A stretch of DNA of 49,637 bases from Deltaproteobacteria bacterium (GCA_016792665.1 JAEUKJ010000512.1:1-49637); one strand, 5' to 3'; shown: positions 12,281 to 24,551, numbered from the stretch's first letter. The notes: generated by a model not told the origin, from the letters alone. Made by a program: numbers and translations.

Positions 12281-15262
<2,982 letters not shown>

Positions 15263-15355: not shown

Positions 15356-16027
15356 TCAGGGGGCGGGCGCGATGACCAGGCCGAGCGCCAGCGCGTGACC
15401 GAGGGCGTCGTCATCGGGCATGGCTCCGGCGGCGAGGGCTTCGATGGCGCGGGCCGAGAGGGGGTCGAGGACGCGGAAGGAAACCGTGTGGTCCTGCTTG
15501 CGAAAGACCACGACGACCTGCGGGACCTCGAGGCGCGCGGGGCGCGGGGTGTCGGCAGACAGCGACGCATCGTCGTGGGTAGCGAGGAGCTGCACCGCGG
15601 GGTGGTGTTGTTCGAACAGGGTCAAGGTCGGGTTCAGGGTCGGGGCGTCGCTCGAGGTCAGCACGGCGGGGTGCACCGCGGTGGCGAAGAGCTCCCACTC
15701 GAGCTGGGCGAGCGCGGCCTCGAAGGCGTGTCCGCGGGCATCGAGGAGGCGCGGCAGCGGCTCGCCAGCGAGGTTCAGATCGCGGAAGCGCGGCGGGTGC
15801 GCGGCGAGGAGGTCGGTGGTGACGACGTCCCACTGCGGGGCGAGCAGCGCGTGCGTCGCCGGGTAGAGCTTGGCGAGGACCGAGGTGACGTGGTCGCGCA
15901 CGAAGCTACGATAGATCCCGAGGCGCTGGGGCGAGGCGCCGAGGGCCTTGGCGTGGGCGTCGAGCGAGGTGTCGGGGGCGGCGCGGACGGCCGCGAGGAG
16001 GGTCGCGGTGTAGGTGGCGAGGGTCAT
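15356..16027 (-). CDS. bufC: DUF2063 RiPP maturation partner (HvfC/BufC-like)
   Basis: A 223-aa protein of the DUF2063 family, which accompanies DUF692 oxidases in Hvf/bufferin loci and is thought to recruit or position the precursor peptide. The N-terminal helical domain has the family pattern LGIYRSFVRDHVTSVLAKLYPATHALL. The C-terminal half is beta-rich (LEVPQVVVVFRKQDHTVSFRVL), as expected for the precursor-binding part. The start overlaps the oxidase stop by four bases (ATGA), so the two are translationally coupled. It is the last gene of the three-gene operon. The gene name is given by homologous layout; the family call is firm, the function is by analogy. Confidence 0.85.
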   Translation of the reverse strand: MTLATYTATLLAAVRAAPDTSLDAHAKALGASPQRLGIYRSFVRDHVTSVLAKLYPATHALLAPQWDVVTTDLLAAHPPRFRDLNLAGEPLPRLLDARGHAFEAALAQLEWELFATAVHPAVLTSSDAPTLNPTLTLFEQHHPAVQLLATHDDASLSADTPRPARLEVPQVVVVFRKQDHTVSFRVLDPLSARAIEALAAGAMPDDDALGHALALGLVIAPAP

Positions 16028-16992
16028 GGGCGCGTGACCCCCGTGACCCCGGTGACGCGCTGCATGATGGCGCGGATGGGGACGAGCTCGTCGATCATGC
16101 GGTCGAGATCGGGGATGTCGTGGTCCCACTCGAGGAGCGTCGAGACCGGGCCGGTGCGCTCGAGGACGTGGGCGTAGAGGTCGAGGACCGGGGTCGCGAC
16201 CGGGCGGCTGTGGGTGTCGATGAGCAGCGTCTCGGTCGCTCCGGAGGCGGTCGTGAACGACTCCGAGAGGTGGCCCGCGAGGTGGATCTGGGCGACGCGT
16301 TCGAGCGGCAGCGCGTCGATGAAGCGACGCGGGTCGTAGCCGTGGTTGGTCGCGTTCACGTAGACGTTGTTGACGTCGAGGAGGAGGCCGCAGTCGCTGT
16401 CCTCGAGGATTCGGGCGAGGAAGGTCGCCTCGTCCATCTCGCGATGATGGGGGTGCCAGGCGTCGAGGTAGTAGCTCGGATTCTCGAGCAGGAACGGGAG
16501 CTTGGCGTGCGCCTGGAGCTGGCGGATGCGGGCCGAGACGTGGGCCACGGCCTCGTCGGTGAAGGGGAGGGGCAGGAGATCGTGGAGCTCGATCCCGTGT
16601 GCGGCGCTCATGCACAGGTGGTCCGAGAACCAGCGTGCGCGTAGCGCTTCGCCGAGCGCGTCGGTGGCCTCGACGAAGGGGAGGTCGAGCGGGTCGAGGC
16701 CGCCCACCGACAGCGACACCCCATGGAGGACCGTGGGGAGGGCGCGCGCGGCGCGGTCGAGGGCAAGGGCGGTACGCCCCCCGAAGGGGACGAAGCCCGC
16801 GCGCTGGCCGTCTGCGTCGAGCGACTCGCGCAGGGCGTTCTCGGTCAGGACCTCGACGAAGTCGATGGCGCCCGCAGACCGACGCGCCACGGCACTTCCG
16901 GGCTGCTCGTCGATGTGCGACCAGAGCGTCTCGAAGTGCTCGCGGCGCAGGCCGAGGCCGACCCCGAGGAAGTCCTGACCGAAGCGACTCAC
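16024..16992 (-). CDS. bufB: DUF692 multinuclear non-haem iron oxidase (HvfB/BufB-like)
   Basis: A 322-aa TIM-barrel enzyme of the DUF692 family. Members (MbnB, HvfB, BufB, TglH) oxidise cysteines of a precursor peptide into metal-binding heterocycles. Expected metal ligands and signature segments are present: H90 in VLHGVSLS, D124-H125 in SDHLCMS, E170-N171 in LLENPS, D206 and N208-209 in DVNNVYVN, H237 and H241 in IHLAGH, D259 and H261 in DTHS, and E288 and D290 in LEWD. I chose GTG 16992 because the protein then starts MSRFGQDFLGVGLGLR, as family members do, and the GTG overlaps the precursor stop (GTGA). The frame stays open upstream to 18150 but only as antisense. The exact modification (oxazolone/thioamide versus thiooxazole) cannot be told from sequence. 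Confidence 0.92.
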   Translation of the reverse strand: MSRFGQDFLGVGLGLRREHFETLWSHIDEQPGSAVARRSAGAIDFVEVLTENALRESLDADGQRAGFVPFGGRTALALDRAARALPTVLHGVSLSVGGLDPLDLPFVEATDALGEALRARWFSDHLCMSAAHGIELHDLLPLPFTDEAVAHVSARIRQLQAHAKLPFLLENPSYYLDAWHPHHREMDEATFLARILEDSDCGLLLDVNNVYVNATNHGYDPRRFIDALPLERVAQIHLAGHLSESFTTASGATETLLIDTHSRPVATPVLDLYAHVLERTGPVSTLLEWDHDIPDLDRMIDELVPIRAIMQRVTGVTGVTRP

Positions 16993-17234
16993 TTCGAGCA
17001 GCTCTTGGCGCCGCACGAGGCCGCGCCGCCGGCGTCCTTCTTGTCGGCGCCGCACGACTTCTCGCCGCCCTCGGCCTTCTTCTTGTCGGCGCCGCACGAG
17101 CCCGCGCCACACGCCGTCTGAGCGCCCGCCTTCTGGGCCGGCTGGGTCGAGCCGCAGCCCGCGCCGAGGGTGAGGGTGCCCATCGAGAGTCCGAGCGCCA
17201 TCGCGCCGAGGGAGAGCTTCTTTCCGAGGTTCAT
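16989..17234 (-). CDS. bufA: Cysteine-rich RiPP metallophore precursor (HvfA/BufA-like)
   Basis: An 81-residue candidate precursor. Residues 1-26 are an export signal (MNLGKK, hydrophobic core, GAG). Cysteines sit at 27, 42, 47, 61, 74 and 79, most followed by glycine. The core is a loose repeat: SCGADKK at 46-52 and 60-66, then SCGAKSCSK at the end. Its place directly before overlapping DUF692 and DUF2063 genes, and the repeated CG motif, match HvfA/bufferin precursors, which are modified on cysteine by the oxidase, exported and bind copper or other metals. C27 could be a lipidated cysteine, but the lipobox (LGAGC) is poor. GGAG lies 6 bases before the ATG. It lacks the DUF2282 pattern of class 1 bufferins, so it is closer to Hvf-type low-complexity precursors. 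The modification is inferred. Confidence 0.82.
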   Translation of the reverse strand: MNLGKKLSLGAMALGLSMGTLTLGAGCGSTQPAQKAGAQTACGAGSCGADKKKAEGGEKSCGADKKDAGGAASCGAKSCSK

Positions 17235-17360
17235 GATGTCTCCGAGGTCCGAGTCGTGGAGGTTCGGCGCGAGGTCGGCAACGTGCCGCGCTGTGCGCCA
17301 TCGGGGGTACGGTCTTCGGAGCGGGTCGGATGTTACGCCGAGGTCGTTTTTTTCTCGTGC

Positions 17361-17448
17361 GGTCGGCGCTCGGTCGGCGCTCGGTCGGTGATCGATCTGT
17401 GCTCGGCCTGTGATCGATCGATGGTCGATCGATGATCGATCGCTCGGT
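17361..17448. promoter_or_regulatory. Tandem 11-bp repeat array in the bufA/sigma-factor divergent region
   Basis: Eight consecutive 11-bp units begin at 17361, 17372, 17383, 17394, 17405, 17416, 17427 and 17438. The first two are identical (GGTCGGCGCTC), later ones drift to GATCGATGATC, and the last is degenerate. The consensus is about GRTCGRYGMTC, and the GATC-containing copies are nearly palindromic. The period equals about one DNA turn, so all units face one side of the helix. The array is 127 bases upstream of the precursor gene and 85 bases upstream of the ECF sigma gene, in a 298-base gap. It may be a cooperative operator or a replication-slippage product. A run of seven T lies just to its left (17347-17353). 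Confidence 0.6.
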
Positions 17449-17504: not shown

Positions 17505-17532
17505 GGCATGCCGTCAGCGAGGTGCCGCGGTG

Positions 17533-18159
17533 ATGAACGGTTCGGAACGCGTGCGCGCAGACGACGGCGCTCTGGTGGCGCGCCTCATCGCAGGCGAGGC
17601 CCGCGCGTTCGGCGAGCTCGTCGACCGCTTCCATGCGCGCATGGTCCGACTGGCGATGGGCTTCGTGGCCGATCGCGGTGCGGCCGAGGAGGTCGTCCAG
17701 GACACGTGGCTCGTGGTGATGACCGGCCTCGAGGGCTTCGAGGGGCGGAGCTCGCTCGGGACCTGGATCTTCCGGATCCTCGCGAACCGGGCGCGGACCC
17801 GGGCCGTCCGCGAGCGACGCACGGTCCCGTTCTCGGCCCTGGGCGACGGCGCGGAGGACGGTGACAGCGGGCTGGGCGCTCGTTTCGACGGCGTCGGACA
17901 TTGGAGCACCCCACCGCGCGCGTGGAGCGAGGAAGACCCCGAGCGGGTGTGCCTGCGGCGCGAGGCGATGGAGGTCCTGGGGCGAGCCATGGACGCGCTG
18001 CCCGCGAACCAGCGCCTGGTCGTGATGCTGCGCGATGTCGAGGGGCTCGAGTCGGACGAGGTGTGTAACATCCTCGAGGTGTCGGAGACCAACCAACGCG
18101 TGCTCTTGCACCGGGCGCGCACCAAGCTGAGGACGGCGCTCGAGGAGCACCTGGGGTGA
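17533..18159 (+). CDS. ECF-family RNA polymerase sigma factor
   Basis: An extracytoplasmic-function sigma factor of 208 aa. Region 2 (about 10-85) has ARAFGELVDRFHARMVRLA, the core-binding EEVVQDTWLVV and the -10-reading FRILANRARTR. A variable acidic linker (about 95-135) follows. Region 4 (about 140-205) has RAMDALPANQRLVVMLRDVEG and the helix-turn-helix SDEVCNILEVSETNQRVLLHRARTKLR. ATG 17533 is supported by GAGGTG at 17519-17524; GTG 17530 is one codon earlier. It is followed after four bases by its anti-sigma factor and is divergent from the RiPP operon. In other bacteria ECF factors control DUF692/DUF2063 metallophore operons, so the same control is plausible here. Confidence 0.93.
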   Translation: MNGSERVRADDGALVARLIAGEARAFGELVDRFHARMVRLAMGFVADRGAAEEVVQDTWLVVMTGLEGFEGRSSLGTWIFRILANRARTRAVRERRTVPFSALGDGAEDGDSGLGARFDGVGHWSTPPRAWSEEDPERVCLRREAMEVLGRAMDALPANQRLVVMLRDVEGLESDEVCNILEVSETNQRVLLHRARTKLRTALEEHLG

Positions 18160-18163
18160 GGCG

Positions 18164-18403
18164 ATGCTGACCTGCGCGGAAGTGACCGAGCTCGTGACGA
18201 GCTACCTCGAGGGGCAGATGGCCTGGCGGCGGCGCATGGCGTTTCGACTGCACCTCGGGATGTGCAAGCACTGCCGGGCCTACCTGCGGCAGATGAAGAG
18301 CACGGTGAAGGTGCTCGGGCGGGTGCCGGCCGATCCGATCCCGCCCGAGCTGCGCGACGACCTGGCGCGTCGCCTCGTGGCGATGCGGAAGAAGGACGGT
18401 TGA
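18164..18403 (+). CDS. Zinc-finger (zf-HC2) anti-sigma factor, short
   Basis: A 79-aa protein with the anti-sigma zinc-finger signature: C4 and HLGMCKHCRAYLRQM (His-x3-Cys-x2-Cys, about 30-37). It starts four bases after the sigma-factor stop and is certainly co-transcribed. There is no transmembrane segment, unlike most ECF anti-sigmas, so it is a soluble binder; soluble zinc anti-sigmas often sense redox state or metals. A metal- or thiol-linked trigger would suit the adjacent metallophore operon, but that is inference. Confidence 0.87.
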   Translation: MLTCAEVTELVTSYLEGQMAWRRRMAFRLHLGMCKHCRAYLRQMKSTVKVLGRVPADPIPPELRDDLARRLVAMRKKDG

Positions 18404-18422: not shown

Positions 18423-18437
18423 TGAGAGTGACTCTCA
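18423..18437. terminator. Short hairpin at convergent gene ends
   Basis: TGAGAG-TGA-CTCTCA is a perfect 6-bp stem with a 3-base loop, 19 bases after the anti-sigma stop, and it contains the stop codon of the convergent minus-strand gene. It is weak as a terminator and has no T-tract, but it is placed where one is expected. Confidence 0.3.
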
Positions 18438-18677
18438 GAAGTCCTTGCCGAGGGCGTCGTCGAGCGCTTTCTGGGTGTCCTTGGCGCGGGCCTGGTCGGC
18501 GGCGAAGGTCGGGTCGTCGATGCGGAAGAGGACCCACCAGGCGGCGAAGATCGAGGCCCCGATGGCGAGGGTGGACGCGACCACGAGCAGCGTGCGGCGG
18601 CGCGGGTAGCGACGCCAGAGGGCGATGAAGGTGACGAGGCCGAGGACAGCGGGCACGATGAGGAGCCAGGTCGGCAT
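18435..18677 (-). CDS. Small two-helix membrane protein
   Basis: An 80-aa hypothetical protein. The first hydrophobic helix is WLLIVPAVLGLVTFIAL (4-20), then a basic loop RRYPRRRT, a second helix LLVVASTLAIGASIFAAWWVLF (30-51), and a charged soluble tail ending LDDALGKDF. The positive loop suggests both termini are periplasmic, leaving the tail outside the membrane. It begins two bases after the YceI gene stop, so it is an operon partner and may be functionally tied to it. No family recognised. Confidence 0.75.
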   Translation of the reverse strand: MPTWLLIVPAVLGLVTFIALWRRYPRRRTLLVVASTLAIGASIFAAWWVLFRIDDPTFAADQARAKDTQKALDDALGKDF

Positions 18678-18679
18678 GG

Positions 18680-19318
18680 TCACTTCTCCACGGCGGTGAG
18701 GGCGAAGCGGACCGAGACCTGGTCGGCGACCTTCACCCCGGCCAGGTGGTCGGGGGGCATGACGCCGAAGTCGGCGAGGCGCAGCGTGAGCTCGCCCTTG
18801 ATGCGCAGCGCGTTGCCGTCGATGTAGACCTTCTTCAGCTTGTCCGAGGCGGCGAGGTAGGCGACCTTGATGGGGACGGTCACGCGCTTGGTCTTGCCCT
18901 TGATGGTGAAGGTGCCGGTGACGCGGCCGGTGGCGGTGGCGCCGAGCTCGAGGGGGCCGGTGAGGTCGAGGGCGACCGCGTCGAGGGCGAAGGCGAGCTC
19001 GGGGAAGGCCTTGGCGTCGAGCCACTCGGGCTGTTGCAGGTGGCCGTCGCGGGTGGTGTTGCCGGTGCGGAGGCTGGCGACCGGGACGGTGATGCGACCG
19101 GTGGCGGCGTTGGGGTTGCGCGGGTCGAGAGCGATCTGACCCTTGGCCTCGGTCGAGAGGCCGCGGATGTTCTCGATGGGGGCGTCGGACTCGAACTCGA
19201 CGAGCTGGATGGCGCCGGGGACGACCTCGAAGGGGGCGGCCTGGGCGGTGGCCGGCGGCATGAGTGCGGACAACGATGTGAGCGAGGCGGTGAGCAGCGT
19301 CAGGGCGAGACGAGACAT
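18680..19318 (-). CDS. YceI-family periplasmic lipid-binding-like protein
   Basis: A 212-aa exported protein. A signal peptide (1-28, ending ATAQAA) is followed by a YceI lipocalin-like beta-barrel. Family features seen are FEVVPGAIQLVEFESDAPIE, GQIALDPRNPNAATGRITV, LRTGNTTRDGHLQ, FPELAFAL, VTGTFTIKGKTKRV and the C-terminal VSVRFALTAVEK. Members bind isoprenoid or amide-type ligands in the periplasm; the ligand here is unknown. It starts its own short operon, with the small membrane protein downstream, 112 bases from the end of the large thrombospondin-repeat gene. Confidence 0.88.
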   Translation of the reverse strand: MSRLALTLLTASLTSLSALMPPATAQAAPFEVVPGAIQLVEFESDAPIENIRGLSTEAKGQIALDPRNPNAATGRITVPVASLRTGNTTRDGHLQQPEWLDAKAFPELAFALDAVALDLTGPLELGATATGRVTGTFTIKGKTKRVTVPIKVAYLAASDKLKKVYIDGNALRIKGELTLRLADFGVMPPDHLAGVKVADQVSVRFALTAVEK

Positions 19319-19430
19319 GAGGCGTCCTTTGCGCGCGAGGCGCGGATGAGTCGCGAGGCGCGCGCCCGGGCCGCGTGCCTCTTGGTGGACTCGTCTCGCG
19401 AGCGGCGCGGACGTTACAGGTGTCGCCGGA

Positions 19431-22400
19431 CTACTTGCAGAACCTGTGCTGCGAGAGGTCTGCCCTGGGACCGACGGTGCTGACGATGCGGATGGTCTGG
19501 TCCTTGGGCCAGAACTCGTCCTCGCTGACGCGCCCGAGGATGCCGACGCCGTTGCCTTGCCCTTCGAAGGACAGGTTCTTGTCGCCGCCGCGGTTGCCGG
19601 CGACGACCTTGATGGTCGCGTCGTAGGCGACGTTCAGGCCCGTGGCGAAGTAGCCCTTCACGCCCGCGACCACCGTGCCGCCGCCGCGACGCAGGACGAG
19701 CAGCGCGCCCTTCGGGATGATGCTGGCCTGGATACCCGAGGGGTCGAGGGAGTCCACGATGACGCGGCTGTTCTGCCCGACGAGCGGGATGAGGTACTGG
19801 CCCTGGGCGTTGGCCGTGATGGCGGTCGTGCCGGCGTAGACCTTCGGGGCGGTCGGGGTGGCGGCGCCCGTGCGCTGGAAGGCGGCGATGGTGATCTGGA
19901 GATAGGGCGCGTTGCTCGGCGACTGGTTGCCGAGCGTCTTGCCCTTGCAGAGATCCTTGCCGCACTCGGAGCTGGAGGCGGCGTTGACGATGGTGCCCTT
20001 CTCGGCTGCCGTGATGATGCGGCGGCGCAGGAAGGCCGTCGCCGCGTCGGACACACACGAAACGTACTCGCCGTGGTTCTTCCACTCGACGCCCTGATCG
20101 CGGGGGCCGTCGCAGGGGCAGAGCTGGTCGATGCTGCAGCCGCTGGCGAGGTCGACTTTGGCGCGGTTGCGGTGGCTGTCGCGAGGGCGGTGCGGCGCGT
20201 CCACGGAGCCGAGGACCGAGGCGTCGAGCGGGGTGTCGGGGCAGGCGTCCTGCGCGTCGGCCACGTCGTCGTCGTCGTCGTCGCTGTCGCACGCGTCGCC
20301 GAGGCTGTCGTCGTCGAAGTCGCTCTGCTCGGGGTCGGCCACGAGCGGGCAGTCGTCGTTCGTGTCGGCCACGCCGTCGTTGTCGTCGTCGTCGTCGCAG
20401 TCGTTGCCGAGGCCGTCGCGATCGGTGTCGACCTGGCCCGCATTGGCGAGGCGGGGGCAGTTGTCTTGCGCGTCGGAGGCGCCGTCGCCGTCGTCGTCCG
20501 GGTCGCAGGCGTCGCCGAGGCCGTCGCTGTCGAGGTCGACCTGCGAGCCGTTGGCGAGCCAGGGGCAGTTGTCGAGTGCGTCGGGCACGCCATCGCCATC
20601 GAGGTCGAAGTCGCACGCGTCGCCGATCCCATCGCCGTCGAAGTCGGCCTGGGTCGGGTTGGCGACGACCGGGCAGTTGTCGCTGCCGTCAGCGAAGCCG
20701 TCGTTGTCGTCGTCGGGGTCGCAGGCGTCACCGATGAGGTCGCCGTCGTTGTCGGCCTGGCCGACGTTGGACAGCGCGGGGCAGTTGTCGACGAGGTCGC
20801 CGACCCCATCGCCGTCATCGTCGTCGTCGCAGGCATCGCCGAGGGCGTCGTGGTCGAGGTTGGACTGGCTCGGGTTGGGGGTCAGGGGGCAGTTGTCGCC
20901 ATCGTCGGCGACGCCGTCGTTGTCGTCATCGGCGTCGCAGGCGTCGCCGAAGGCGTCGGCGTCGGCGTTGCTCTGCGTGGAGTTCGGGATGCCGCGGCAG
21001 TTGTCGATGGCGTCGTCGATACCGTCGCCGTCCTGGTCGGGGTCGCAGGCGTCGCCGACGAGATCGCCGTCGAGGTCGAGCTGGTTCGCGTTCACCGTGA
21101 GGGGGCAGTTGTCCTCGCCGTCCAGGACGCCGTCGTTGTCGTCGTCGCGATCGCAGGCGTCGCCGAGGTGGTCGCCGTCGTTGTCTTCCTGAAGCGCGTT
21201 GGGGACGGTCGGGCAGTTGTCGAGGTCGTCCAGGACACCGTCGTTGTCGTCATCGCCGTCGCAGACATCGCCCTGGCCGTCGTGGTCCTGGTCGCTCTGG
21301 TCGGTGTTCGCGCCGAAGGGGCAGTTGTCGGCGAGGTCGATGATGCCGTCGTTGTCGTCGTCGGCATCGCAGGCGTCACCGAGGCTGTCGTGGTCGTTGT
21401 TGGCTTGATCGCCATTGGCCACGCGCGAGCAGTTGTCGACCGCATCGAGGATGCCGTCGTCGTCGTCGTCGAGGTCACACGCGTCGCCCTCGCCGTCGAG
21501 GTCGTTGTCCTGCTGCAGCGGGTTCTGGACCGTCGGGCAGTTGTCGTCGTCATCGCCCACGCCGTCGCCGTCATCGTCGCCGTCGCAGGCATCGCCGAGG
21601 CCGTCGTCATCGGTGTCGACCTGGTCGGCGTCGGCGACGAGGGGGCAGTCGTCGGCGTCGTCGCGCACGGTGTCGTTGTCGTCGTCGTCGTCGCAGGCGT
21701 CGCCGAGGCTGTCGTGGTCGGTGTTCACCTGGTCGAGGTTCGCGACCAGGGCGCAGTTGTCGTCGAGGTCGAGGACGCCGTCGTTGTCGTCATCGGCGTC
21801 GCAGGCGTCGCCGAAGGCGTCGGCGTCGGTGTCGGTCTGGCCGGGGTCGTAGGCCGTCGGGCACAGGTCGTCGCAGTCGCCGAGGCCGTCGAGATCGGTG
21901 TCCAGGGTGCAGGCCGGGGCCTCGACGTCGACGAGGAGGGACGCGGTCGCCGTGGCGCCGGTGGCGGACGTGCCGGTGGCCGTGATGGCGAAGGGCCCGG
22001 CGCGCGTGAAGACGACGGTGACGATGGCGCCTTCGGCCGGGCCGAGATCGGCCAGGTCCCAGGCGACCGCCATCGGGGTCGAGGCGCTGGCCGTGAAGAG
22101 GTAGGGCACGCCGACCAGGTAGGGGCCAGGGGCCGCGGTGATCGACAACGTCGCGACCTGCGCGGCGGGGCGCGGGCGCACCGTGACGAGGCGGGTGTCG
22201 CGCGTCGTGACCGTGCGCTTGGTGGCGACGAGCGTCAGGACATGGGCGCCGGCGTTGTTGAACGCGAGCGGTCCTGGGTTGGCGCCGGTGGCGACGGGCT
22301 GGTCGTCGAGGAGCCAGGTGAGCCTGGTGCTGGGGCCGGGGTCGAGACCGGCAGCGGTGAGGGCGGCCTGGAGGTCGAGGCGATCGCCGACGAAGAGGTT

Positions 22401-24551
22401 CGCGTTGGTGGCGGGCCGCTCGATGGTGGCGAGGCCTTCGCACGCGTCACCGATGCCGTTCAGGTCAGCGTCGGCCTGGTCGGCGTTGGCGACGTTCGGG
22501 CAGTTGTCAGCGGCGTTCGCGATGCCGTCTTGATCGTCGTCGCGGGCGGCGGCGAGCGCGGGCCAGCAGGCGTCGTTGGGGTCGAGGGCGCAGGGGTCCT
22601 CGCCGTCGTTCGAGCCATCGCCGTCGCTGTCGCCGACGGTCGGATCGGTGGTGCGGGCGAACGGGCCGGCGAGCTCGACGCCGTTCGCGAGGCCGTCCTG
22701 ATCGGTGTCGGCGGCCGGGTCGGCCAACGAGGTGAGGGCCTGGGCGCCGAGCAGATCGAAGCGTGCGTCGCCGATCTTCTGGCGCGTGCGCAGGTGCTCG
22801 CGGGCCGCGATGCCGGCCGCCAGTCCGGGGCCGGGGGTGAGGGCCTGGAGGGCGTCGGCGAGGGCTTCGTGAAGGGTCGGCGCGGCGTCGCTGGCCCAGG
22901 TCGCCCGCGTGCGCGAGGCGAGCTCGAGGGTGTCGGCCAGCGCGCAGAAGGAGGCCAGGGCGCCGTCGCACGCGTGCTGATCGAGGGAGGCCACGAAGGC
23001 GTCGAGGTCGAGGTCGGTGCCGTTGGCGGCGTTCCAGGTGTCGAGGGCGTCGAGGATGGCGCCGCGGCGTGCGGGGCCGTCGGCCGTCGAGGCGGCGGTG
23101 ATGAAGAAGCGACCGGCGTCGTCCTCGGCACGCTGCCACTGGGCGAGGGCCGCGAGCTGGTCGAGGCCGAGGCCGCTGCGCGGGCTCACCACGTGTGTGA
23201 TGGGGCGCACGAGCTTGGACGCGAGGTTCTGGCGCACGGCCGTGACCCACTCCTCGACGGTCTGCCACGGCGTGTCGGAGAGCTCGGTGAAGGTCACGTC
23301 GCCAATCCCACCGAAGTAGGATTTCGCGGACCAGGCGACGCGCTCGGGCAGCGGGGTGGCCGCGACGTCGATGCGCGAGACCTGGGCGAGGGTGGCGTCG
23401 AAGGCGTCGAAGCGGAGGGCGAGGGTCGTGGCGAGCGAGAACGCGGGGGTCGCGTCCGAGGGCTCGTCGTTGATGGCGATGTCCGGTGCGGCGCCATCGG
23501 CGAGGCGGGTCGAGACGAGCTGGCCGTCGAGGCGACGCAGGACGATGAAGCCGTCGTCGCTCGGGGTCGAGAGGGTGGTGACGCCCTGCTTGAACGAGAG
23601 ATTGGCGAGCCACTCGACCGCGAGGGGGCGGGTGACCGAGGGCCTCGACGCAGCGTCGTAGGGGTCGGTGCCGCGGGCCTGCTCGAAGAGGTCGGGCGTG
23701 CCGTCGGTGTCGCTGTCACGCGGGCCGCACACGACCCAGAACCCGTCGCCCGTGCAAGGGCAGAGGTCGGCGTCGTAGGCCTGGTAGTTGCAGCCGAGCA
23801 CGAGCTGCATGACCTGATCGGTGCTGTAGGCGTCGGTGCTGGGGCTGAAGGGGTCGAGGCCGAGGAGGTTCTCGATGAAGTCGGGGATGCCGTCGTGATC
23901 GTTGTCGAGGCCGGGCTCGGGCGCCGCGATGGTGTAGGTCGCGGTGAAGGGGCCGGCGACGATCTCGCCGTTGCCGCGATAGAGGCCGTATTGGAGCTCG
24001 TGCTCGCCGACCCAGCTCGCGTCGAGGGTGGCCGTGTCGGCCCCGAGGGGAGCGCCGCCCAACTGCCAGTGATAGTACCAGCCGATTTGCAGGTCGCCGG
24101 CCAGGTCGTTCACCTTCTGGAGGGTGACGCGCACGGGGCCGGGGTAGGTCCCGGGCGGCGGCGAGAGGCGCACACCCGCGACGGGTGGGGTGTTCGGGTC
24201 GTCGACGGTCGGGGCCGCGGTGCCGGCGACGCTCATCGCGGGGAGGCCGGGGCCGGGCGCGGGGTTGCTGCCCGCGACGTTCTCGACCAGGACCGGCGCG
24301 TCCGCGGGGATGCCGCCCAAGAGTTGTGACCCACCGGAGAACCAGCCGATGCGCAGCGCGGAGCCATCGGGGGTGGCACTCATCGTGCGTGAGCCGTCGC
24401 CGACGCGCCAGCTCAAGATCTGGCCGCGGAGGTCCAGCCAGACGTTGGCAGGAGCGGGGGCGGGTTCGGGCGTCGCGGGTTGGGCGGAGGCGGTCCCGGC
24501 GGAGGCGAGCACGAGGCCGAACGCGATGGAGCGGAGCAGGGTCGACTTCAT
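19431..24551 (-). CDS. Giant secreted protein with thrombospondin type 3 calcium repeats and PKD-like domain
   Basis: A 1706-aa exported protein. A signal peptide (1-23, ending TASA) is followed by a low-complexity Pro/Ala stretch and beta-rich N-terminal domains. Calcium-loop segments appear at about 215-230 (DNDHDGIPDFIENLLGLDPF) and 640-715. A PKD/Ig-like domain spans about 804-884. Then come about 15 thrombospondin type 3 repeats of 36 residues (about 894-1434, core GDACDxDDDNDGVLD). After the repeats, about 1470-1535 is a Cys module (CPCDG, WKNHGEYVSCV, SSECGK), followed by a beta-rich C-terminus. Each repeat should bind calcium, making a rigid Ca-dependent stalk. The start overlaps the upstream gene's stop (ATGA), so it is the third gene of the operon. 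No enzymatic motif seen. Confidence 0.88.
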   Translation of the reverse strand: MKSTLLRSIAFGLVLASAGTASAQPATPEPAPAPANVWLDLRGQILSWRVGDGSRTMSATPDGSALRIGWFSGGSQLLGGIPADAPVLVENVAGSNPAPGPGLPAMSVAGTAAPTVDDPNTPPVAGVRLSPPPGTYPGPVRVTLQKVNDLAGDLQIGWYYHWQLGGAPLGADTATLDASWVGEHELQYGLYRGNGEIVAGPFTATYTIAAPEPGLDNDHDGIPDFIENLLGLDPFSPSTDAYSTDQVMQLVLGCNYQAYDADLCPCTGDGFWVVCGPRDSDTDGTPDLFEQARGTDPYDAASRPSVTRPLAVEWLANLSFKQGVTTLSTPSDDGFIVLRRLDGQLVSTRLADGAAPDIAINDEPSDATPAFSLATTLALRFDAFDATLAQVSRIDVAATPLPERVAWSAKSYFGGIGDVTFTELSDTPWQTVEEWVTAVRQNLASKLVRPITHVVSPRSGLGLDQLAALAQWQRAEDDAGRFFITAASTADGPARRGAILDALDTWNAANGTDLDLDAFVASLDQHACDGALASFCALADTLELASRTRATWASDAAPTLHEALADALQALTPGPGLAAGIAAREHLRTRQKIGDARFDLLGAQALTSLADPAADTDQDGLANGVELAGPFARTTDPTVGDSDGDGSNDGEDPCALDPNDACWPALAAARDDDQDGIANAADNCPNVANADQADADLNGIGDACEGLATIERPATNANLFVGDRLDLQAALTAAGLDPGPSTRLTWLLDDQPVATGANPGPLAFNNAGAHVLTLVATKRTVTTRDTRLVTVRPRPAAQVATLSITAAPGPYLVGVPYLFTASASTPMAVAWDLADLGPAEGAIVTVVFTRAGPFAITATGTSATGATATASLLVDVEAPACTLDTDLDGLGDCDDLCPTAYDPGQTDTDADAFGDACDADDDNDGVLDLDDNCALVANLDQVNTDHDSLGDACDDDDDNDTVRDDADDCPLVADADQVDTDDDGLGDACDGDDDGDGVGDDDDNCPTVQNPLQQDNDLDGEGDACDLDDDDDGILDAVDNCSRVANGDQANNDHDSLGDACDADDDNDGIIDLADNCPFGANTDQSDQDHDGQGDVCDGDDDNDGVLDDLDNCPTVPNALQEDNDGDHLGDACDRDDDNDGVLDGEDNCPLTVNANQLDLDGDLVGDACDPDQDGDGIDDAIDNCRGIPNSTQSNADADAFGDACDADDDNDGVADDGDNCPLTPNPSQSNLDHDALGDACDDDDDGDGVGDLVDNCPALSNVGQADNDGDLIGDACDPDDDNDGFADGSDNCPVVANPTQADFDGDGIGDACDFDLDGDGVPDALDNCPWLANGSQVDLDSDGLGDACDPDDDGDGASDAQDNCPRLANAGQVDTDRDGLGNDCDDDDDNDGVADTNDDCPLVADPEQSDFDDDSLGDACDSDDDDDDVADAQDACPDTPLDASVLGSVDAPHRPRDSHRNRAKVDLASGCSIDQLCPCDGPRDQGVEWKNHGEYVSCVSDAATAFLRRRIITAAEKGTIVNAASSSECGKDLCKGKTLGNQSPSNAPYLQITIAAFQRTGAATPTAPKVYAGTTAITANAQGQYLIPLVGQNSRVIVDSLDPSGIQASIIPKGALLVLRRGGGTVVAGVKGYFATGLNVAYDATIKVVAGNRGGDKNLSFEGQGNGVGILGRVSEDEFWPKDQTIRIVSTVGPRADLSQHRFCK
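20250..21870 (-). repeat. About 15 tandem 108-bp thrombospondin type 3 units
   Basis: Regular units of 36 codons encode NCPxxxNxxQxDxDxDGxGDACDxDDDNDGVxD. Aspartate codons and Cys codons recur in register, so the plus strand reads as long GTC/GTCGTC tracts. Copies differ in the variable half but share the acidic core, making recombination or slippage between units likely. The borders are approximate. Confidence 0.88.

Follow-up and report, generated by a model that had tools for sequence, protein, structure and literature searches.

The window analysed here is a stretch of 49,637 nucleotides from a Deltaproteobacteria bacterium, probably a myxobacterium (GCA_016792665.1 JAEUKJ010000512.1:1-49637), and its relevant features are collected in Table 1. 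Three overlapping minus-strand genes encode a RiPP precursor, an MNIO and a PME1 partner. Their coordinates, strands and lengths agree with the first-pass annotation, as do the two four-nucleotide overlaps, GTGA between precursor and MNIO (16989-16992) and ATGA between MNIO and partner (16024-16027). The sequence CGGAGAC is a plausible ribosome site 5' of the peptide ATG. The annotation had seen in these genes the order of HvfABC and BufABC, and the locus is indeed an MNIO-PME1 RiPP operon. The functional unit appears to go beyond these three genes, taking in a YceI gene and an ECF sigma/anti-sigma pair. On either side lie genes for two large proteins, a 993-aa Ala/Gly-rich protein with no family match directly after the operon (12281-15262, minus strand) and a 1706-aa protein whose many Asp-rich repeats of the DxDxDG type give it a calcium-binding look (19431-24551, minus strand).

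Table 1. Features of the operon and its neighbourhood, numbered from the first nucleotide of the window
Feature	Position	Strand	Details
PME1 partner gene (DUF2063 + C-terminal RRE-like domain)	15356..16027	-	223 aa; PF09836, PF22106
MNIO gene (DUF692/PF05114)	16024..16992	-	322 aa, GTG start; PF05114 290 bits; aligned to 3BWW
RiPP precursor gene	16989..17234	-	81 aa; ORF and homologues preceding MNIO genes in relatives
Core/repeat region, aa 42-81	16992..17111	-	sequence; DNA tandem repeat 17007-17108
Signal peptide aa 1-26 and Cys27, probable lipidation site (LGAG-C)	17154..17234	-	sequence; aligned Cys in relatives
Putative ECF-type promoter of operon, GTAACATCCGACCCGCTCCGAAGAC	17312..17336	-	102 nt before precursor ATG
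22-bp imperfect tandem repeat, 3.8 copies, rich in GATCGATC	17360..17442		between sigma and precursor genes
ECF sigma factor gene	17530..18159	+	divergent from precursor; Sigma70_r2 and r4_2
zf-HC2 anti-sigma factor gene	18164..18403	+	79 aa; PF13490 38.1 bits; NF052368 57.7 bits, over cut-off
Small predicted membrane protein	18435..18677	-	~80 aa; directly after YceI; no family match
YceI-family protein, signal peptide	18680..19318	-	212 aa; PF04264 99.6 bits
Putative ECF-type promoter of YceI gene, GTAACGTCCGCGCCGCTCGCGAGAC	19393..19417	-	99 nt before YceI ATG

The assignment of the second gene as a DUF692 oxidase with all its ligand segments held up: every metal-site segment is kept, with residues H90, D124, H125, E170, N171, D206, N208/N209, H237, H241, D259 and H261 present. 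The first-pass annotation had named a DUF692 protein lacking these residues as what would speak against its reading, which does not apply to an enzyme with an intact metal site. The proposed catalytic Asp, D290, is also present and is followed by a His (H291). Among solved structures the enzyme is best matched by 3BWW (E 1e-47), itself an MNIO 72% identical to HvfB (PMC13419390). Scored against the NCBIfam equivalogs, the window MNIO missed the cut-offs for both BufB (259.8 of 310 bits) and HvfB (238.5 of 360 bits), and it is therefore a captophorin-type MNIO outside both named subfamilies. The same genome holds a second, distant MNIO (G000:C117:6481-7158; L002, L053), which scores 78.5 bits to PF05114.

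The third gene had been called a DUF2063 protein, and its product passed the cut-offs of both PF09836 (37.4 bits) and PF22106, NGO1945_C (31.1 bits); the assembly has no other DUF2063 match. An AF2 model of this partner (pLDDT 95.3) matched 3dee/NGO1945 best in the PDB (E 1.3e-5), followed by chain A of the TglHI entries 8hci/8hi7; in the gonophorin system it is NGO1945 that acts as partner protein (PMC13097082). In three other loci (L013, L058 and L059) the MNIO and the DUF2063 partner are fused in one open frame of ~550 aa.

The precursor is the Cys-rich peptide previously described as exported, with Cys 27, 42, 47, 61, 74 and 79 at the positions given and a Sec signal which, as for all precursors here, was judged by eye. 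That it is a real gene follows from a close sister peptide, L055, and from a profile match. L055 comes from another genus of the same family, is 62% identical (E 4e-26, for a single comparison) and lies directly 5' of an MNIO gene; a profile built from such precursors, the window peptide included, recovers the window peptide in the genome at E 1e-24. The core cysteines stand in the contexts TACG (42), GSCG (47), KSCG (61), ASCG (74) and KSCS (79), and at the DNA level the repeat is a 42-bp tandem in 2.5 copies (17007-17108). A core of repeated SCGADKK had been proposed; two exact copies are there, while the rest consists of SCGAK/SCSK and not of further exact copies.

The comparison with HvfA/BufA and DUF2282 profiles suggested earlier was carried out. 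The peptide reached 7.5 bits against the HvfA model NF050137 (KCGExKCG), below its 19.5 cut-off, and Pfam gave it no DUF2282 match, in keeping with the claim that it is unlike the DUF2282 precursors; across the DUF2282, HvfA and PHROG comparisons nothing was over cut-off or significant. The peptide contains no EGKCG repeats or any Lys-Cys, and no Cys-Lys. Since each of these possibilities was tested and failed, the system is not a member of the HvfA, DUF2282-bufferin or Cys-Lys types.

Where the system does belong was sought among its relatives. MNIO loci were gathered from GTDB contigs, then from the class and then from the phylum, and the Cys-rich exported open reading frame before each MNIO was read. 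The window MNIO is matched in 230 of 379 genomes of the phylum. In a tree of 94 MNIOs it falls in a 12-member clade (support 100/99) of seven 'SC' and five 'KC' systems, drawn from Myxococcota and a single planctomycete. Almost all precursors in this clade resemble lipoproteins and carry SCG or KCG[AGE] repeats. The clade is separate both from the EGKCG clade of Pseudomonadota and from a large CK clade. The sister peptides of the nearest enzymes include L055, with SCGAGSCGGEKK repeats; L084, L085 and L086, with EKSCGGEK repeats; L090 and L091; L087, L089 and L096, the last two of which mix SCG or ACG with KCG; and L012 of Candidatus Uabimicrobium, with GEHSCGGDK. The more distant L144 carries EGSCGADK/EGSCGAEK repeats and the Corallococcus precursor NCSAK/SCGAGSCS. 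At least two further lineages of Myxococcota have SCG-type precursors as well, so that the motif recurs. The Ser-Cys-Gly core seems not to have been described before; it is not peculiar to the window peptide, as SCG[AG][DE]K-type repeats are present in many Myxococcota and in Uabimicrobium. The main text of PMC12452194 does not describe SCG-type peptides as a family; they probably fall among the small Cys-containing ORFs, left unclassified in its Table S2, that precede mega-cluster MNIOs. Three further MNIO-linked, lipoprotein-like precursors (L082 at G001:C148, L110 in G365 and L125 in G363) have GCPTDAAGGCPAG or AGCPGTS repeats and up to 17-18 Cys, most of them followed by Pro; FonBC does not tolerate Pro in its substrates (PMC13097082), and these Cys-Pro precursors may therefore need different enzyme behaviour.

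Each feature of the captophorins (bufferins), a class named only recently, that can be read from sequence was found at the locus: an MNIO with an intact site, a PME1 partner (DUF2063 + RRE) and a Cys-rich precursor with a Sec signal before the MNIO. The window shares with HvfABC (oxazolin), FonABC (fontiphorin) and NgoABC (gonophorin) a Sec-exported repeat precursor, an MNIO and a PME1 in the same order. With the EGKCG captophorins it shares a Cys followed by Gly, in a 5-mer-like xxSCG unit as against EGKCG; it differs from them in having Ser (or Ala) and not Lys before the Cys, in failing the NF050137 and HvfB cut-offs and in the separate clade of its MNIO. We consider it probable that the three genes form a RiPP operon of the captophorin type and that it makes a metal buffer held in the periplasm by a lipid anchor.

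The anchor concerns Cys27, which the first-pass annotation had listed together with the other cysteines and which is probably the lipobox Cys of a lipoprotein signal and not part of the core. A Cys stands exactly at the end of the signal peptide in 11 of the 12 clade precursors (ASGC, ATGC, MVGC, LAGC, LTGC, LAAC and others, several of them strict lipoboxes), whereas in the paralogues L185 (G001) and L187 (G013), which lack it, the signal closes in an ordinary A-x-A site. From these two observations Cys27 is probably lipidated and not a modification site, which most likely leaves five core Cys (42, 47, 61, 74 and 79). Lipidation of MNIO RiPPs has been shown experimentally, including for the EGKCG peptide NedA (PMC12636315). 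The window peptide resembles these DAG-RiPPs (DybA and the lipidated oxazolin NedA; PMC12636315) in being MNIO-modified, as predicted, with a probable lipoprotein signal, and differs in its SCG core and off-consensus predicted lipobox. The window lipobox, LGAG-C, has Gly at -3, off the strict [LVI][ASTVI][GAS]C consensus, so that lipidation of Cys27 stays a probability. This poor lipobox, together with the soluble paralogues in relatives and with L014, whose signal does not end in a Cys, favours a much less probable reading in which the same modified peptide is cut by signal peptidase I, with Cys27 unlipidated, and is a free periplasmic or released captophorin; the Cys conserved in 11 of the 12 clade members argues against it. 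Three orphan SCG precursor copies were seen with no MNIO on their stretch (L185 at G001:C415, L186 at G150:C370 and L187 at G013:C369), of which two are without the Cys at the signal end. Such copies suggest that modification takes place in trans and that lipidated and soluble forms are paired.

The modification had been called undescribed, but the chemistry is very probably already known: the characterised MNIO-PME1 systems all install 5-thiooxazole on Cys and bind copper (PMC13097082). FonBC takes Ala, Arg or Thr before Cys and favours a small residue after it (PMC13097082), a rule matched by the core sites ACG, SCG, SCG, SCG and SCS; Ser before Cys is not among the FonBC variants reported in the available part of that paper. 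FonB R15/R16, the two Arg on which substrate position 1 depends, also have their counterpart in R16/R17 of the window MNIO. A difference lies in the residue after the catalytic Asp, where Phe250 of FonB and Asp251 of BufB2 are replaced by His; an Asp would likewise be expected there in a Cys-Lys (Buf2-like) captophorin, as against H291 in the window. In 15 of the 18 SC systems this residue is Q, H, N or S. Most KC systems have F or N, with F in the Pseudomonadota KCG systems, and 27 of the 28 CK systems have D, A or E. The SC, KC and CK classes were set by thresholds of our own choosing and related sequences are not independent, so the pattern is a lead and not proof.

Because the pocket thus differs, with His after the catalytic Asp and Ser before the substrate Cys, it is conceivable, though unlikely, that the same architecture makes another Cys modification or serves a metal other than copper. 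MNIO chemistry does differ between subfamilies (PMC12452194). On the other side, FonB F250 variants still yielded 5-thiooxazole (PMC13097082), from which we take the site after the catalytic Asp to tune substrate choice, and every characterised PME1-dependent case gave the same product. We therefore keep to a 5-thiooxazole captophorin as the preferred reading.

The promoters bear on what such a captophorin would be for. The elements before the operon and before YceI are near-identical, the sigma/anti-sigma pair sits between them, and in a pattern search of the 7.25-Mb assembly GTAAC-N-TCCG-N11-AGAC (GTAACNTCCG-N11-AGAC) had exactly two matches, these two. We suggest that the divergent sigma factor reads both. 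Its anti-sigma carries an H-x3-C-x2-C zinc motif. A further GTAAC-N16-AGAC (18065-18089, plus strand) falls inside the sigma gene. Like the YceI element it stands 99 nt ahead of a start codon, here that of the anti-sigma gene; it was not counted. It is also present in G150, on conserved codons (C-N-I...E-T-N), and may therefore be coincidence. A scan for sigma-70 promoters and terminators gave nothing above chance, and an Rfam search of 14-20 kb gave no RNA element.

Related elements are found in other genomes. GTAAC-N16/17-CGTA precedes 17 of 76 Myxococcota MNIO precursors, where 0.05 would be expected (first-order Markov); the controls gave one match on the reverse strand and none in 126 kb of MNIO coding sequence. 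Both G150 promoters, of the operon and of an orphan precursor, have GTAACA-N16-CGAC, and an A-tract a little upstream of GTAAC is common to them and the window; a third promoter-like match in G150 (C50) has no convincing gene downstream. The sigma orthologue in G150 is 54% identical, and among the 14 genomes searched only G150 has a close sigma/anti-sigma orthologue pair, divergent from an orphan SCG precursor without MNIO. Conservation of the pair with all SCG systems accordingly failed; a more distant pair lies directly 5' of the MNIO gene in G013.

The ECF16 promoter consensus is tGTAACc-N16-CGAA (PMC3420878), and in Caulobacter two DUF2282-DUF692-DUF2063 operons are transcribed by sigma-F from GTAACC-N16-CGAA in response to chromium and cadmium (PMC3511200). 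The related Myxococcota promoter resembles this ECF16 promoter of the Caulobacter bufferin operons, to judge by its sequence, whereas the window operon itself has GTAAC-N16-AGAC as against the ECF16/SigF-type GTAAC-N16-CG[AT]A. The window and the Bufferin 1 (DUF2282)/Caulobacter sigma-F systems also have in common the MNIO and DUF2063 partner, a GTAAC-N16- ECF-type promoter, putative in the window, a sigma/anti-sigma pair in the same neighbourhood and the presumed logic of a stress response. They differ in that the window precursor has no DUF2282 match, its MNIO is under the BufB cut-off, its anti-sigma is zf-HC2 and not NrsF/DUF1109, and the neighbourhood has YceI and showed no DoxX gene. The copper sigma factor CorE of Myxococcus was considered as the known owner of the promoter and set aside, as the text of the CorE paper has no GTAAC motif.

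YceI probably shares the regulon of the operon. YceI genes adjoin MNIO operons in Corallococcus, in the order YceI-precursor-MNIO-partner, and at five other loci; at two Corallococcus loci in which YceI is the first gene of the row, the GTAAC-N16/17-CGTA element precedes it. At L115, L122, L136, L139 and L143 the MNIO operons that have YceI close by carry precursors of other kinds, chiefly CK, and the link is therefore not limited to SCG systems.

An uptake metallophore resembling the chalkophore methanobactin, and not a stress buffer, seems to us improbable: although chalkophores are among MNIO products and proteolysis could release the peptide, MbnB matches the window MNIO only weakly (38 bits), no MbnC, TonB-dependent transporter or exporter was recognised in the neighbouring ORFs, and the ECF16-like promoter points toward metal-excess stress. 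Least credible is an unmodified metallothionein-like lipoprotein beside an unrelated oxidase operon, for while the peptide is Cys-rich, Lys-rich and of low complexity and orphan copies occur without a nearby MNIO (L185, L186), the GTGA translational coupling and the precursor-MNIO order, conserved across tens of loci, speak against it.

The product is most likely a stress-induced, membrane-tethered thiooxazole peptide which sequesters a soft metal in the envelope, with copper favoured. In the sequence of events we propose, metal or redox stress would free the ECF sigma from its zinc-finger anti-sigma, as the gene pair and promoter suggest, and the sigma would then transcribe the operon and YceI through the GTAAC-N16-AGAC promoters, a pair seen in the sequence whose link to this sigma we infer. 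By homology, the RRE domain of the partner would offer the precursor, still in the cytoplasm, to the iron oxidase, which would convert as many as five core Cys, all with a small residue after them, to 5-thiooxazole (-4 Da each). Following the signal-peptide pattern, Sec export and lipidation of Cys27 would tether the peptide to the membrane, where its thiooxazoles may bind Cu(I) or a different soft metal; YceI may assist them in the periplasm.

Few RiPP classes are as numerous as the captophorins, with >20,000 in RefSeq (PMC13097082). Published accounts of them deal mainly with Pseudomonadota and with three kinds of precursor, DUF2282, Lys-Cys and Cys-Lys. The window and its relatives define a further recurrent core type, Ser-Cys-Gly, on mostly lipoprotein-like Myxococcota precursors; this lineage and its regulon are the points of interest that remain. 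More tentatively, and with less assurance than for the operon itself, we envisage a Ser-Cys-Gly captophorin lineage in Myxococcota in which a tethered thiooxazole peptide would buffer metal at the membrane surface, YceI would act as a dedicated periplasmic carrier or helper, an own ECF sigma/zinc-finger anti-sigma regulon would work through GTAAC-N16-AGAC, and the MNIO pocket, with His, Gln or Asn after the catalytic Asp, would be re-tuned for Ser-Cys. The promoters suggest that MNIO operons are under ECF-type control in more than one phylum, and the concrete regulon of promoter pair, sigma/anti-sigma and YceI makes the role of this captophorin, and the signal to which it would respond, directly testable.
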